A program made the translations under genes and the position numbers. A model generated the notes under the pieces. That model searched no databases. It saw only the letters and a list, made by a program, of their open reading frames with translations, and was not told the DNA's origin. Source: Paludibacter sp. (GTDB lineage: Bacteria > Bacteroidota > Bacteroidia > Bacteroidales > Paludibacteraceae). Taken from it: 47,450 nt of DNA. Location: the NCBI GenBank assembly GCA_028691965.1, contig JAQUYE010000006.1:13384-60833 (forward strand). The letters are read 5' to 3'. Of this stretch, positions 2,771-8,224 are shown piece by piece. Within the stretch, counting starts at the first letter, position 1, and each line of letters starts with the position of its first letter.

Positions 2771-2778
2771 TATCTTTG
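2771..2778 (+). promoter_or_regulatory. -7 promoter element of the btuB operon
   Basis: TATCTTTG matches the Bacteroidota -7 consensus TAnnTTTG. Transcription would begin roughly at 2784, exactly where the cobalamin riboswitch fold starts. A TTTG at 2740-2743 is somewhat too far upstream to be a well-placed -33 box. Confidence 0.7.
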
Positions 2779-2783
2779 CGCCT

Positions 2784-2999
2784 GCATTGGTTCTCCTGCT
2801 GCATTCGCTGCCGGAGATGAAAAGGGAATCAGGTGTAAATCCTGAACAGTCCCGCTGCTGTAAGCTCTTAGTTTCGAACAGCTATCTCACAAAGATACCT
2901 GCAGAAACTGAAGTCGTGAACAAATCTCAATCCACTATTCCACATCCTGGGATGGGAAGGAGGTTCAACGATGGAGTAAGTCAGAAGACCTGCCATGCT
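2784..2999 (+). promoter_or_regulatory. Cobalamin (adenosylcobalamin-type) riboswitch
   Basis: Two conserved parts are visible. Positions 2824-2865 hold the core GGGAATCAGGTGTAAATCC followed by CAGTCCCGCTGCTGTAAGC, and 2979-2994 hold the B12 box AGTCAGAAGACCTGCC. The outer stem P1 can be formed between GCAT-GG at 2784-2790 and CCATGC at 2993-2998. Cobalamin binding to such elements lowers expression of the downstream uptake genes; here those are btuB and btuG, which fits perfectly. About 177 bases separate the aptamer from the btuB start; I see no poly-U terminator there, so control is more likely at translation. Confidence 0.95.
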
Positions 3000-3088
3000 T
3001 GATGTTAGTTTTTAGCTTTCGAGGAAAGGGCTAAAGAACCAAAAAAAGGGTAATCAACTTTTTACGTACAGCTGGTAGTGTAGTGTTG

Positions 3089-3176: not shown

Positions 3177-5201
3177 ATGAAATTGCAAGGTATTCTGGTG
3201 CTGATGTTATCAGCAGGTACATTGGCCTACCCCCAACTTCCACTTGATAGTGTGCTGCACTTACAGGAACTGGAGGTGGTGGCCAGTCGTTATCAGGAGG
3301 TAATCCCGGCACAGCGTCTTAGTGGCGATCAGCTCGAGGCGCTTAATAGTTTTTCGGTTGCCGACGCTATCCGCTACTTTTCGGGTGTTCAGCTGAAAGA
3401 TTATGGTGGCATTGGCGGACTGAAAACAATTGATATCCGAAGCATGGGTACCAACCACATGGGGGTGTTCTACGATGGAATTCAACTGGGGAATGCGCAA
3501 AACGGACAGGTCGATTTGGGCAAGTTCTCACTCGACAATGTGGAGGAGATTACGCTCTACAATGGTCAGAAGAGTGCCATCTTTCAATCAGCAAAGGATT
3601 TCAGTTCGTCGGGTACTATCTATATCCGCAGCCGCCGCCCCCGTTTTAAAGCTAATAAATCGAATAACCTTAAAGCTCTTGTTCGTTCCGGATCATTCGA
3701 CCTTCTGAATGCTTCTGCCCTGTGGGAGCATGCGCTGTCGGATCGTATTTCTTCATCGATGAATGTCGAACATATCAGTGCTTCGGGGAAGTATCCGTTT
3801 CGCTACCGGCGATTGCATGCAAACGGAACTGTGGCCTACGATACCACAGCGATACGCCAAAACGGGGACGTGCAGGCGCTGCGAATCGAAGCCGGACTCT
3901 TTGGTGATATCGACGACGGGCGCTGGAATGCGAAACTCTATTTCTATGATTCGGAACGGGGCATCCCGGGAGCTATCGTAAATAATGTATGGAAACGTTC
4001 GCAACGTCAGTGGGATCGTAACTTTTTCGCACAGGCTTCGTGGCAGAAATCGGTAACCCGCCGGTACGACCTGCTCATCAATGCGAAGTATGCCCGCGAT
4101 TATATGCGCTACCTGAACCCGGACACTACGCTTATGTACATCGATAATGCATTTTTACAACACGAAATGTATGCCTCGGTGGCGAATAAGTTTTCGGTTC
4201 TTAAGAACTGGGATATTAATGTGTCGACCGACTTGCAATATAATTCATTGCAATCGACAATGGCCGGCTTTGTACGTCCGTCGCGACTAAGCTCTCTCCT
4301 CGCCCTGGCAAGCTCCCTATCGGTACAGCAACTTAAGATTCAGGGGAGTTTGCTGGCAAGCGCCGTAAGGGAAAGTTCGCTGGCGGGCAGTTCGGAGAGT
4401 GCGAAAACTGCTGCGGATAACCGGGAAGTATCGCCGGCTCTGTTCGTTTCCTTCCGCCCTGTCGGCCTGCCTGCGCTGCAGCTCAGGGCATTCTACAAAC
4501 ATATTTTCCGCATGCCTACCTTCAATGATCTGTATTATACCGATATCGGAAATGCAGCGTTGAAGCCCGAATTCACACATCAATATAACCTTGGATTTCA
4601 GTATTCGAGCTACAATGCGGTGCACTGGCTCCGAAACTGGCAGGTGCAGGCCGATGCCTACTATAATGAAGTGAGTGATAAAATTGTGGCCGTACCCAAA
4701 GGAAACGGGATGTATCGGTGGATGATGATGAACCTGGGCTATGTTGAAATCAGAGGCCTGGATGTGGCAGCAAGCGGTCAGTTCGTGCTTAACAACAACC
4801 TGCATGCGCACGTGAAGCTTTCGTACACCTTCCAGCGTGCCCAGGACTTTACCCAGCGCAGGAATCAGGATCTGCAACGGCTCACCTGGGGTGGCCAGAT
4901 TCCCTATATTCCATGGCACAGCGGATCGGTGATTGCAGGTGTCGCGTATCGCTTGTGGCGACTCAACTATAGTTTTATTTACGTGGGTGAGCGGTATCAT
5001 AACTCAGCCAACATCCCCGAAAACTACGAACAACCCTGGTACACGCATGATCTTTCGGTGAGCCGGAATTTTAGCTGGTCCGACTGGTCGGGTAAACTCT
5101 CACTCGAAGTAAATAACCTGCTGAGTCAGGATTACGAGGTGGTGCTTAACTACCCCATGCCCCAACGCAATTACAAACTCGCCCTGACGCTTGAATTCTA
5201 A
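3177..5201 (+). CDS. btuB: TonB-dependent outer-membrane cobalamin receptor BtuB
   Basis: 674 residues with a signal peptide (MKLQGILVLMLSAGTLAYPQ). The plug domain runs from about residue 28 to 155: LQELEVVASRY near the N-terminus (possible TonB-box region), SVADAIRYFSGVQLKDYGG, IDIRSMGTNHMGVFYDGIQL and VEEITLYNGQKSAIFQ are typical of BtuB-like plugs. The remainder is a 22-strand-type barrel ending in LALTLEF with a terminal phenylalanine, the usual outer-membrane signature. There is no CarboxypepD_reg extension, unlike SusC receptors. The upstream cobalamin riboswitch and downstream BtuG make corrinoid uptake the clear role: energised transport of cobalamin across the outer membrane. The ATG at 3177 follows an AT-rich leader; btuG begins 26 bases downstream, so the genes form an operon. 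Confidence 0.93.
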   Translation: MKLQGILVLMLSAGTLAYPQLPLDSVLHLQELEVVASRYQEVIPAQRLSGDQLEALNSFSVADAIRYFSGVQLKDYGGIGGLKTIDIRSMGTNHMGVFYDGIQLGNAQNGQVDLGKFSLDNVEEITLYNGQKSAIFQSAKDFSSSGTIYIRSRRPRFKANKSNNLKALVRSGSFDLLNASALWEHALSDRISSSMNVEHISASGKYPFRYRRLHANGTVAYDTTAIRQNGDVQALRIEAGLFGDIDDGRWNAKLYFYDSERGIPGAIVNNVWKRSQRQWDRNFFAQASWQKSVTRRYDLLINAKYARDYMRYLNPDTTLMYIDNAFLQHEMYASVANKFSVLKNWDINVSTDLQYNSLQSTMAGFVRPSRLSSLLALASSLSVQQLKIQGSLLASAVRESSLAGSSESAKTAADNREVSPALFVSFRPVGLPALQLRAFYKHIFRMPTFNDLYYTDIGNAALKPEFTHQYNLGFQYSSYNAVHWLRNWQVQADAYYNEVSDKIVAVPKGNGMYRWMMMNLGYVEIRGLDVAASGQFVLNNNLHAHVKLSYTFQRAQDFTQRRNQDLQRLTWGGQIPYIPWHSGSVIAGVAYRLWRLNYSFIYVGERYHNSANIPENYEQPWYTHDLSVSRNFSWSDWSGKLSLEVNNLLSQDYEVVLNYPMPQRNYKLALTLEF

Positions 5202-5227: not shown

Positions 5228-6388
5228 ATGAGAAAAGTATTTAGTTTAGCAGTACTGGCATTGCTGCTGCTTTCGTGCCGCGATGAACTGGTAGTAACGC
5301 CCGGTGATGAACAACAAGTGGATTCGCTGCGCGCGAATGTGGAGTATAGCGGCTTTTACCTCCTGAACGAAGGGAATATGGGCTCTAATAAAGCTACGCT
5401 CGATTTCTTCAACTTCGAAACGGGGATCTACCATAAAAACATTTTTGCCACTATCAATCCGGATGTTCCCAAGGAATTAGGGGATGTGGGCAACGACCTG
5501 AAGATATATGGTGCACGACTCTATGCTGTAATCAACGCCTCCAATAAGGTGGAGGTAATGGATGCCCGCACGGCCCGCCGGCTCGGGCAGATTGACATCC
5601 CGAATTGTCGCTACATTAGCTTTCACGAAGGCTATGCCTATATAACGTCCTATGCCGGACCGATTGAAATTAATCCCGATTATGCTCAGAAGGGCTATGT
5701 GGCGAAAGTGGACACGGCCACCCTTCAGGAGGTAGGCCGCTGCCTGGTGGGGTATCAGCCTGACGAACTGACATGTTCGGGGACTAAACTCTATGTTGCC
5801 AACTCGGGCGGCTACATGGGTGCGGGTTCTACTTCGGGCTATGAACAGAGTGTGTCGGTGATTGATTTGAATTCATTTGAGGAAGAAAAACGTATCACTG
5901 TTGATTATAACTTACACCGCATCCGAACCGATAGTCGGGGTGATTTGTGGGTCAGCTCCAGGGGCGATTACATCAGTCGGCCTTCGCGCTTATTCGTGAT
6001 CGATGGGAAAAGTGAAACAGTAATTGACAGTCTGGATATAGCGACAAGTAACTTTTGCATTGCCGGTGACTCATTGTATAGCATCAGCGTTCAGTGGAGC
6101 TATGTGTCGTACACCAACGAAATCACCTATGCCATCGTGAATACCCGGACACGTGAAATCGTGACACGGAATTTTATTACCGACAGTACCGATATGCAGA
6201 TCGAAATGCCTTATGGTATCCTGGTGCACCCGAACACCCGCGAAGTTTTTGTAACCGATGCCGGCAATTATGTAAGTCCGGGGCAACTGTATTGCTTTGA
6301 TGCATCAGGGAAAAAGAAATGGAACGTTCAAACCGGCGATATCCCGGCGCACCTTACCCTTTTAACAACTACTAATTCAAAAAAATAA
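5228..6388 (+). CDS. btuG: Surface corrinoid-capture lipoprotein, beta-propeller (BtuG-like, DUF5074/YncE)
   Basis: 386 residues. Lipoprotein signal MRKVFSLAVLALLLLSC with the lipid cysteine at 17, followed by RDE. The mature protein is a YVTN/YncE-like propeller; recurring blade segments include GFYLLNEGNMGSNKATLDFF, LGDVGNDLKIYGARLYAVI, NKVEVMDARTARRLGQIDIP, GYVAKVDTATLQEVGRCLVG and YGILVHPNTREVFVTDAGNY. BtuG of Bacteroides thetaiotaomicron is a surface-exposed propeller that binds vitamin B12 extremely tightly and sits on BtuB; this gene has the same make-up and the same position next to btuB under a cobalamin riboswitch. Role inferred: capture of cobalamin and hand-over to BtuB. Its TAA is followed at once by the ATG of the next gene, implying translational coupling. 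Confidence 0.9.
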   Translation: MRKVFSLAVLALLLLSCRDELVVTPGDEQQVDSLRANVEYSGFYLLNEGNMGSNKATLDFFNFETGIYHKNIFATINPDVPKELGDVGNDLKIYGARLYAVINASNKVEVMDARTARRLGQIDIPNCRYISFHEGYAYITSYAGPIEINPDYAQKGYVAKVDTATLQEVGRCLVGYQPDELTCSGTKLYVANSGGYMGAGSTSGYEQSVSVIDLNSFEEEKRITVDYNLHRIRTDSRGDLWVSSRGDYISRPSRLFVIDGKSETVIDSLDIATSNFCIAGDSLYSISVQWSYVSYTNEITYAIVNTRTREIVTRNFITDSTDMQIEMPYGILVHPNTREVFVTDAGNYVSPGQLYCFDASGKKKWNVQTGDIPAHLTLLTTTNSKK

Positions 6389-8161
6389 ATGAGTATGAAA
6401 AAACGATTTACCCTTTCTGTGTTAATGGCTGTGTGTATGTTTGTACCTATCATGGCCGATTCGCCTTCTGTTAACAAGGTACCTGATAACTCTACTGCAA
6501 CGCAGTCTGTTTATTCGATACAGGTACCCGCAGAGGCTACGCTTGTGGTAGGAACTAAAACGGCTCACTTCAAACGGTTTACTACACTAAGTCCCGATAG
6601 CATTGTTGGTTCGGGCGAAACAGATGTACGTTATTTCAGTTTAGCTGCTTCGCAGGTGTACAACTACCGGGTGTCGCAAGCATCGAAAGTGACCTATGCA
6701 GGTACTTTTAAAATGTCGTCGACCCTGGCTCCGCTGAGCATTCCCGCAGAGTTGCTCGAAGGAGATCCCCGGCGTATCGACCGTGACCTGAAGGCTAACT
6801 CCAACTTCAATGTGGCCGACATCTTACTGAATATTAATGAAAGAGGACATCTGAAATTAACTACGGGCGACAGCTATCAGTTGGTGACTATCCGGGCCTG
6901 GCAGGCGGTGGATAATATCATTAATAATTATTTTATCGATCCTGATTACCGGTACCGGGTGATGAACGAAGAGGGACAGGCTGATGCCACGGTGGTAACA
7001 GTCGATCATAGCGGACGATTATCGGCCGTGGGTACCGGTACTGCCATCGTGTTGGTAAGTTATGATGCTATAAATAGTAGTACTGCTGCCGGCGGACCGT
7101 TCTTCGGCGCGTTGTGGCCCGAAAATACGGGAGTGTTTGTGGTAACAGTGGGTGCTCAGCAGGCGGATGTACTTACCGGAATGAAACTGAACGAAGCTGC
7201 CAACGCTGCTACTATCGAAAGCAAACTGGCCGGAGCAGCTATCGACGCTGAACTGGATGTATTGTATTATCCCGAAGCTGATGGAGCGTATGCCTACACC
7301 TTTACTCCCGAAAGTGGTGCTGTGGTTACCCTGGCAAAGCCCGTAATCACGGGGGATGAGCTAAGCTATTCCGGTTTTAGTGCCAACGGAGTGGTACCCA
7401 ACACTGATGGTAGTTTTACCACACAGTTGGTAAACGGACCTAATATTATACGTATTGCAACAGAGACAGCTGTCAGTTACCAGGTGCTACGGGCCAAGCC
7501 TGTAACCTATACGCTTACTAACCTTTCGGCGCCCGAAGCAGCTATTCATCCGGGGGATGAGGTAACTGTACTTTTCAACAGCGTGTTTCATCCTGTACAT
7601 AAATTAGCCGGAGTATATAATATGTCGGCACGGATTTCGTATCAGGCCGCAACTTCTACTGTTACCGGAGCAGCTAACCAATACACGTTTGCAGCTACCG
7701 CGAAAGCTCAAACCCTTACCTTCACCATTCCCGACAACTGGGATACGACGCAACCCTTCCTGCTGAACGGTGGGGCGATCCTTGCAAGTGGCTACGGTGA
7801 TCCGTATGGCGGTCACCGGGGCATAACCCTTGAAAAAGGGAAGGATGTGAATTTCGGGGCATTGATGCGAAAAGCGTATTTCGGGGCATTACCTGACATA
7901 GCCATTCCGGTGCAGTCATCCATCTCAACCGGCATCGACCAGCATCCGGCTGTCCGGCTTCAGGTATATCCTAATCCGTTTACTGAAGTGCTGACGGTGC
8001 AAACCGACTCAGCAGTTCCGGCGAGAATCTATACTGTTTCGGGACAACTGGTAGTGGAAACCACTCTTCAGGAGGGCTCCAACCGAATTGATGTTTCGAA
8101 TCTGGCGCAGGGTGCTTATGTTATACACTGCGGTGATGCTATTCAACGGATTGTAAAATAA
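6389..8161 (+). CDS. Uncharacterised T9SS-exported protein of the cobalamin operon
   Basis: 590 residues. A Sec signal peptide (MKKRFTLSVLMAVCMFVPIMA) may start at 6389 or at the second ATG, 6395. Domains seen: an N-terminal beta-rich region (to about residue 165) of unknown family; a segment around 140-260 whose VTVDHSGRLSAVGTGTAIVLVSYD resembles a bacterial Ig-like group 2 (BIG_2) repeat; a beta-rich middle part (260-510); and a C-terminal type A T9SS sorting domain (from about 528: VYPNPFTEVLTV, IYTVSGQLV, NLAQGAYVIHCG, ending RIVK). It should therefore cross the outer membrane by T9SS and be anchored or released. It is last in the btuB-btuG operon with zero spacing after btuG, and a strong terminator follows. 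Role unknown; being under the riboswitch suggests corrinoid binding or scavenging (compare BtuH-type accessory proteins). Confidence 0.8.
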   Translation: MSMKKRFTLSVLMAVCMFVPIMADSPSVNKVPDNSTATQSVYSIQVPAEATLVVGTKTAHFKRFTTLSPDSIVGSGETDVRYFSLAASQVYNYRVSQASKVTYAGTFKMSSTLAPLSIPAELLEGDPRRIDRDLKANSNFNVADILLNINERGHLKLTTGDSYQLVTIRAWQAVDNIINNYFIDPDYRYRVMNEEGQADATVVTVDHSGRLSAVGTGTAIVLVSYDAINSSTAAGGPFFGALWPENTGVFVVTVGAQQADVLTGMKLNEAANAATIESKLAGAAIDAELDVLYYPEADGAYAYTFTPESGAVVTLAKPVITGDELSYSGFSANGVVPNTDGSFTTQLVNGPNIIRIATETAVSYQVLRAKPVTYTLTNLSAPEAAIHPGDEVTVLFNSVFHPVHKLAGVYNMSARISYQAATSTVTGAANQYTFAATAKAQTLTFTIPDNWDTTQPFLLNGGAILASGYGDPYGGHRGITLEKGKDVNFGALMRKAYFGALPDIAIPVQSSISTGIDQHPAVRLQVYPNPFTEVLTVQTDSAVPARIYTVSGQLVVETTLQEGSNRIDVSNLAQGAYVIHCGDAIQRIVK

Positions 8162-8166
8162 TCAAT

Positions 8167-8208
8167 CCCTCCCGGCCTTTAGCATATTTAATAAAGGCCG
8201 GGAGGGTT
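8167..8208 (+). terminator. Rho-independent-type terminator of the btuB operon
   Basis: A perfect 14-bp stem (CCCTCCCGGCCTTT at 8167-8180 with its complement at 8193-8206) encloses a 12-base AT-rich loop and is followed by TT-G-TTT. It lies 5 bases after the last stop codon of the operon. Confidence 0.88.
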
Positions 8209-8224
8209 GTTTGCCATTTATGCA

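Follow-up and report, generated by a model that had tools for sequence, protein, structure and literature searches.

A type IX-tailed protein of apparently chimeric origin in a cobalamin riboswitch operon of Paludibacter sp.

Introduction

Vitamin B12 capture in Bacteroidota is described, in the accessible text of two papers, via surface lipoproteins (PMC10404256, PMC8941943), and BtuB and BtuG of Bacteroides thetaiotaomicron form a lidded transporter (PMC10404256); the same text makes no mention of the type IX secretion system (T9SS), type IX or sorting. Here we analyze a 590-amino acid (aa) secreted-protein open reading frame (ORF) at 6389..8161 on the + strand of a 47,450-nucleotide stretch of Paludibacter sp. 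DNA (contig JAQUYE010000006.1, positions 13,384 to 60,833), hereafter the window. The encoded protein ends in a T9SS sorting domain, and its gene is the last of an operon with btuB- and btuG-type genes behind a cobalamin riboswitch. An earlier reading of the letters alone (the sequence-only reading) had proposed it as a new corrinoid-capture factor placed on the cell surface by T9SS. We favor, with moderate confidence, the explanation that it is a deletion-derived T9SS surface protein whose retained module is an accessory at BtuB-BtuG.

We take IPR026444 to be the T9SS sorting domain and IPR013424 to be PEP-CTERM. The first was found on 229 and the second on 88 of 824 DUF4465 sequences, where both are called C-terminal extracellular targeting motifs and where targeting motifs are reported not to co-occur; the words T9SS, type IX and sorting are absent from the accessible text of that paper (PMC12751083). 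Eight DUF4465 proteins bind B12, according to a paper whose accessible part mentions neither T9SS nor type IX (PMC13398666). Since IPR026444 on DUF4465 proteins had already been tallied, the switch of anchor is not wholly new, and the novelty claimed for T9SS anchoring survives in part: no description of a T9SS-tailed BtuH was found in the accessible text of the literature searched, which comprised mostly open-access journals and no preprints.

Below, L-numbers denote fetched loci, G-numbers genomes (G000 being the window's own) and C contigs. The window genome is a 3.04-Mb assembly of 167 contigs, 89% complete.

Results

Sorting tail and apparent chimeric structure of the 590-aa protein

The T9SS type A sorting domain occupies aa 526-585 (7964..8143, + strand) and exceeds the cut-offs of both PF18962 (E 5.3e-11; 43.1 bits, cut-off 27) and TIGR04183 (E 2.6e-10; 40.2 bits, cut-off 23), in agreement with the sequence-only reading. 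A putative signal peptide, with a basic start and a hydrophobic core as judged by eye, aligns with the start of a secreted relative. The search for the T9SS machinery was made with two components, SprA and GldM. The SprA model matches on two contigs of the window genome (1630 and 844 bits, cut-off 200), and the GldM model scores 380 bits (cut-off 180). Because of the sorting tail and these machinery models, the protein is predicted to be exported by T9SS and anchored at the surface. At E <= 1, Pfam finds the sorting domain and, below its cut-off, TcfC, and nothing else; at the same threshold the protein has no match to PF14717 (DUF4465) or DUF5074, and none to the BtuH structure 7biz.

Two different genes of relatives resemble the two parts of the ORF. 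Residues ~42-590 align with the second half of a 1003-aa protein in locus L035 and of a 1009-aa protein in L036. Residues 1-31 (6389..6481), comprising the putative signal peptide and first mature residues, apparently come from a BtuH-T9SS gene: they align without gaps with the start of the L035 BtuH gene at 13 of 31 identical positions. Among 256 secreted-like N-termini, that one included, the mean was 5.0 identities (sd 1.4) and the next best 9. On the nucleotide level, the first 96 bases match the L035 BtuH gene start at 54 positions vs 31 for the start of the large gene. The BtuH-like part stops near aa 31, and resemblance to the large proteins begins near aa 40-42, so that the junction zone of the supposed in-frame deletion would fall at aa 32-41 (6482..6511). 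The sequence beyond it, aa 42-508 (6512..7912), is a conserved module of which eight copies were aligned.

Judged from these alignments, the ORF looks like a chimera of a BtuH gene start and the second half of the large protein. An in-frame loss of ~2.5 kb, as measured on L035, would take out the BtuH body, the DUF4465 domain and the linker. With this composition of a chimeric start and a second half, both known B12-binding domains are gone from the protein.

Relatives carry BtuH and DUF4465 domains with sorting tails

A full-length search covered the window's own genome and 60 relatives, of which 49 gave a match. Most of the matches listed lie at or near the sorting tail; among them, only G033 (66%) and G013 (53%), both of the same genus, extend past the tail over the module. 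Paludibacter belongs to Bacteroidales, taken here as the window's order. The 66% match corresponds to L035, a locus of Paludibacter sp. 47-17; the same locus was also read as L037 in G033, and the two are probably one genome.

The L035 genes follow the order btuB, btuG, a 398-aa protein and the 1003-aa protein. The 398-aa protein contains a BtuH domain (7biz E 7.4e-42, 8blw E 3.3e-81); 7BIZ is the deposited structure of PMC8941943, as given in its accessible text. The 1003-aa protein consists of a DUF4465 domain (PF14717 E 3.3e-28), a linker at residues 291-446 with no Pfam match at E <= 1, the window-homologous stretch and a sorting domain (34.9 bits). The DUF4465 part of the relatives' large protein matches the DUF4465 chains 9qpm and 9fct of PDB. 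In G013 (L036) the same set is present, with the large protein of 1009 aa; in addition there are a lipobox-type DUF4465 protein (by eye) and another protein with a sorting-like tail. The BtuH counterparts in L036 and L047 match TIGR04183 at 30 bits each, above the cut-off of 23.

T9SS-borne corrinoid capture, as proposed by the sequence-only reading, is therefore well supported in the relatives, where BtuH and DUF4465 domains are neighboring or fused, and is supported only indirectly for the 590-aa protein.

The DUF4465 protein at L036:5948-7111 has both a lipobox-like start and a C-terminal stretch resembling sorting tails (29-33% over 58 residues), in contrast to the lack of co-occurring targeting motifs reported in the accessible text of PMC12751083. 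In G113 (L048:553-13350), the genes behind one riboswitch are btuB, btuG, a lipoprotein-like BtuH gene, one whose product weakly matches btuG (E 2e-4), those of a tailed BtuH and a tailed DUF4465 protein, and a module gene. The latter BtuH and DUF4465 proteins apparently carry sorting-like tails, so that both anchor types would occur in one locus. In L050, a 289-aa secreted-looking protein (L050:5897-6766) with no match to the B12 reference proteins used is located between a cobalamin riboswitch and the module protein.

Distribution and conservation of the module

A three-copy profile of the module was searched against 393 genomes of the order and gave six matches in five genomes, the window's own included. 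Together with L035 and L036 this makes eight copies, of which the L051 copy is cut short in the alignment. Seven of the eight are found in loci with a cobalamin riboswitch (the window, L036, L037, which is the L035 locus, L048, L049, L050 and L051). The eighth, L047, has no riboswitch in its 5,064-base contig, which stops 291 bases past the neighboring BtuH gene. Five copies (the window, L035, L036, L048 and L049) share their stretch with btuB- and btuG-type genes. The suggested co-occurrence of this family with cobalamin riboswitches was thus borne out; homologs lying mostly away from btuB/btuG and riboswitches, named beforehand as the outcome that would speak against a B12 role, were not what was found.

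The domain context of the module varies. It is fused to DUF4465 in L035, L036 and L047, and has no fused DUF4465 in L048 and L049, where it stands behind the linker, or in L050, where it follows a different N-terminal part. The L051 module, cut by the contig end, sits behind a stretch 29% similar to a 468-aa protein of L036, and carries no fused DUF4465 as far as the contig reads. In L048, DUF4465 is encoded by a separate gene beside the module gene. As it stands without fused DUF4465 in these loci, the module is no mere appendix of that domain, and the fact that it is linked to riboswitches whether or not DUF4465 is present speaks for an involvement in corrinoid uptake.

Between the window and L035, residues 42-508 differ by dN 0.207 and dS 1.77, the latter near saturation, which points to purifying selection on the module over the long term. 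Lineage-specific residues, window vs L035, number 29 vs 42 in the module and 33 vs 45 in btuB; the module shows no speed-up on the window side. Aromatic residues account for 7 of the 37 invariant module columns, and the C-terminal motifs recur in the seven full copies. For the window copy of the module, Pfam gives no match at E <= 0.1. The Ig-like segment seen by the sequence-only reading has a faint counterpart in the family, as a weak Big-like match in five of the eight copies (best E 0.0082).

With the eight-row profile, no credible relative of the module was found in PDB (best E 0.86), and 7biz did not appear at E <= 10. A divergent BtuH was considered as the identity of the module and rejected, given the lack of 7biz in this search and an hhalign probability of 1.1. 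A second candidate came from G200, where the genes follow the order DUF4465, BtuH, a 728-aa protein, btuG and btuB, mirroring B. thetaiotaomicron operon 2 as tabulated in the accessible text of PMC12751083. The 728-aa protein (L158:10725-12911) is a lipoprotein-like Recep_L_domain protein, matched in 2/295 genomes of the order, its own included, and could be BtuL, judging from the gene order. A relation of the module to it is not supported: the module profile gives 5.4 bits vs up to 4.0 for shuffles (190 of 300 shuffles), in a comparison made with this one protein, not with BT_1955.

Binding domain, stalk or accessory

The sequence-only proposal that the 590-aa protein is itself a corrinoid-capture factor is not supported: the protein has neither DUF4465 nor the BtuH body, and its module resembles neither BtuH nor any PDB chain. 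It could still be a genuine new T9SS-borne capture factor if the module were a new corrinoid-binding domain, which we regard as possible but unlikely. The riboswitch loci of seven copies, the copies without fused DUF4465, the separate DUF4465 gene of L048 and the aromatic invariant columns are what such a domain could produce; the failure to resemble BtuH, any PDB chain or the BtuL-position protein, and the rarity of the module (5/393 genomes of the order; 2/60 relatives among the matches listed), speak against it. A broader form of the same idea makes the module a structurally new corrinoid-binding family beside BtuG, BtuH, BtuJ and BtuK (BtuK being outside our comparisons). It would be delivered by T9SS within a non-lipoprotein capture layer of T9SS-tailed BtuH, BtuJ and module, whose parts are fused, split or lost as cassettes in T9SS-bearing Bacteroidales. 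This broader form we find doubtful.

Equally, it is unlikely, if conceivable, that the module is a mere stalk that holds DUF4465 or other domains off the cell, which would make the window protein a remnant without a function in B12 uptake. Such a role would suit the weak Ig-like character and the loss of both binding domains, and elsewhere the genome still encodes one lipoprotein each of the DUF4465 and BtuH types (lipoboxes by eye). A plain stalk would presumably not need the recurring C-terminal motifs, however, and neither the ORF, intact over 590 codons, nor the presence of the module without fused DUF4465 in other riboswitch loci fits a remnant well.

Reality of the deletion

The deletion itself could be an artefact, with a full gene pair in the living genome and a window contig that skips ~2.5 kb. 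The assembly is fragmented, and none of the seven other module copies shows the deletion. On the other side, the two parts are joined in frame with a coherent putative signal peptide preserved, no pieces of the missing BtuH and DUF4465 genes were found on other contigs of the 89%-complete assembly, and by eye the matching places of L035 share no evident repeat on which an assembler could go wrong. We consider an artefact rather improbable; because the assembly is incomplete, misassembly retains that share of the probability.

The DUF4465 matches elsewhere in the assembly are a lipoprotein on C163 (162.6 bits) and a 518-aa ORF on C75 (27.4 bits, cut-off 25). The sole BtuH match is a lipoprotein-like gene on C122, 41% identical to the L035 protein in one comparison and 33% in another. 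The C163 gene (L003:2231-2998; lipobox by eye) lies behind the second cobalamin riboswitch of the genome (L001:1501-1696); within 1.5 kb past it are a Bacteroidales small SRP RNA, a tRNA and a Bacteroidales-1 (6S-like) RNA. The C122 gene (L053:6841-7704; lipobox by eye) has no riboswitch in the surrounding 12 kb.

Besides the fragmented assembly, several observations weigh against a deletion-derived accessory protein among T9SS-tailed relatives. The tail of the L035 BtuH protein scores 22.2 bits with PF18962, under the cut-off of 27, and at E <= 0.001 NCBIfam detects a sorting tail neither in the L049 protein nor in any of the three from L048. AlphaFold models were too poor to be of use, with a mean pLDDT of 33.5 for the whole protein with one homolog and 47.8 for residues 365-511 alone. 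Lineage-specific residues, window vs L035, number 31 vs 13 in btuG and 11 vs 3 in the sorting tail, both of which appear to evolve faster in the window lineage. Most of the divergence between the window and L035 may also predate the deletion, so that the constraint on the module would be a long-term one.

That an ordinary T9SS cargo unrelated to B12 drifted into the operon by chance is very improbable: T9SS tails are common (the query has matches in 49 of the 60 relatives; among those listed, all but G033 and G013 match at or near the tail), but seven of the eight module copies are in riboswitch loci and three are fused to DUF4465.

Organization of the operon

The operon reads riboswitch, btuB, btuG, 590-aa gene, hairpin on the + strand. 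The cobalamin riboswitch (RF00174) at 2771..3011 (G000:C33:16154-16394) stands at its front and matches the full model (1-189) with 86.7 bits in cmscan (E 4.1e-20), as the sequence-only reading had stated. The btuB-type TonB-dependent receptor (3177..5201, + strand, 674 aa) has Plug and beta-barrel Pfam matches (PF07715, PF00593) and is 75% identical to its positional counterpart in L035. Among NCBIfam models, TIGR01779 for the B12 receptor matches it best, at 97 bits far under the cut-off of 600.

The btuG-type gene (5228..6388, + strand) encodes a 386-aa beta-propeller lipoprotein of the DUF5074 family (PF16819 E 3.9e-18) with an N-terminus containing LLLLSC, a lipobox by eye. It matches the solved PDB chains 8ptd, 8ptf and 8blw at E about 1e-33 (8blw 1.6e-33), and 12 distinct PDB sequences at E <= 0.001. 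These include 8BLW and 8P97, given as BtuB1G1 and BtuB3G3 in the accessible text of PMC10404256. The btuG stop codon (6386-6388) is followed at a gap of 0 bases by the ATG at 6389. The coordinates that the sequence-only reading gave for the 590-aa ORF are exact; the translational coupling that it stated is a plausible consequence of this adjacency.

The operon ends in a terminator-like hairpin at 8163..8209 (+ strand), with a 10-base loop and a weak T run (MFE -32.7 kcal/mol, z -6.1, 0/200 shuffles as good). It was not among the hits of a consensus terminator scan restricted to loops of 3-8; that scan counted 5 terminators in the region vs 5.8 in shuffles, no excess. At the left window edge (76-1242), a type IIG restriction-methylation protein (TaqI_C; PADLOC REase_MTase_IIG) is represented by its C-terminal part.

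Sorting tails on B12-binding domains in Bacteroidales

DUF4465 is present in 169 of the 393 genomes of the order. For 132 of them, among the matches listed, one match each was taken and 40 loci were drawn at random; because the sample came from the matches listed, weak DUF4465 matches are under-represented. A local sorting-domain profile, built from 13 tails of the studied loci and therefore partly circular, finds a sorting tail on 24/40 sampled proteins, and TIGR04183 matches all 24 at E <= 0.001. By a plain pattern, an N-terminal lipobox is present in 9/40, after two of the 11 flags (L104 and L113) were dropped as far from the N-terminus. Seven proteins have neither signal, two of them cut by the contig (L108, L122). 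Of the 40 loci, 32 have a cobalamin riboswitch. Among the 24 with a sorting tail the number is 21 (none in L097, L099 and L125), and a btuB, btuG or BtuH homolog (BLAST) lies in the fetched stretch of 14 of these 24.

BtuH matches at E <= 1e-10 occur in 93/393 genomes. By the local tests, the best 30 BtuH loci comprise nine with a sorting tail, 18 with a lipobox and three with neither, in a ranking that leans to T9SS-tailed forms since 4/5 query rows were such proteins. TIGR04183 matches eight of the nine tailed proteins at E <= 0.01. Within 1.5-kb flanks, a riboswitch was found for one of the seven tailed BtuH loci searched (L153).

Unusual architectures were also observed. Single ORFs combine BtuH and DUF4465 domains in L101 (L101:5491-7905), where the ORF also ends in a sorting domain, and in L113 (L113:4867-6672). 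DUF4465 lies inside ORFs of 2,446 and 2,532 residues in L092 (L092:3577-10917) and L105 (L105:2620-10218), in both of which the local tests detect neither lipobox nor sorting tail; L105 has a cobalamin riboswitch upstream, and none was found in L092.

Discussion

As known B12 domains are found on T9SS tails inside riboswitch loci, the anchor looks exchangeable: some genomes use lipid, others T9SS, and L048 apparently combines the two. The relatives' set of BtuB, BtuG, BtuH-T9SS and DUF4465-module-T9SS would then constitute a corrinoid-capture system with T9SS in place of the lipid anchor. Once exported, its BtuH and DUF4465 domains would be displayed at or close to the cell surface, from where they would load BtuBG. 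The window strain may have undergone an in-frame deletion of ~2.5 kb that fused the beginning of the btuH-T9SS gene with the latter half of the adjoining DUF4465-module-T9SS gene. Both known corrinoid-binding domains would have been lost, and the T9SS layer would have shrunk to the module and its tail.

At low cobalamin the riboswitch would be relieved, and the 590-aa surface protein would be made and exported by the type IX system. BtuB and BtuG probably form a lidded transporter as in B. thetaiotaomicron. The module probably still acts as an accessory at this site, by display, docking or weak contact with the ligand, and binding in this strain would be done by BtuG, by the DUF4465 lipoprotein under the second riboswitch and by the BtuH-type lipoprotein encoded elsewhere. 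Docking of the module to BtuB-BtuG, if it occurs, would help to account for the transfer of ligand from T9SS-exported binders; corrinoid binding by the module, if it occurs, would mean a new fold for B12 binding.

Comparison with known systems

As a T9SS type A cargo, the 590-aa protein has the expected TIGR04183/PF18962 sorting domain, in a genome with models of the machinery. It differs in context: among the papers listed, T9SS is tied to virulence factors, adhesins and gliding, and cofactor capture is not named. The BtuL-position protein of G200 is likewise an extra surface protein in a B12 operon, located between BtuH-type and btuG-type genes, but it is a Recep_L_domain protein, with no meaningful match to the module. 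BtuG, a DUF5074 propeller lipoprotein, is matched by the neighboring gene at 5228-6388 and not by the 590-aa protein, which has no DUF5074.

BtuH (BtuH2, PDB 7BIZ; BtuG1 with a BtuH domain, PDB 8BLW) has its likeness in the btuG neighbor of L035, which contains a BtuH domain, and the window ORF appears to keep the start of this gene without the domain. The B. thetaiotaomicron BtuH1, BtuH2 and BtuGH carry lipidation signals, as given in the accessible text of PMC12751083, in contrast to the T9SS-type tails on the relatives' BtuH. BtuJ/DUF4465 (IPR027828; PDB 9FCT) is a family on which T9SS tails are common; the window ORF lacks its domain, whereas the relatives' large protein contains DUF4465 in the N-terminal part, joined to the module in L035, L036 and L047.

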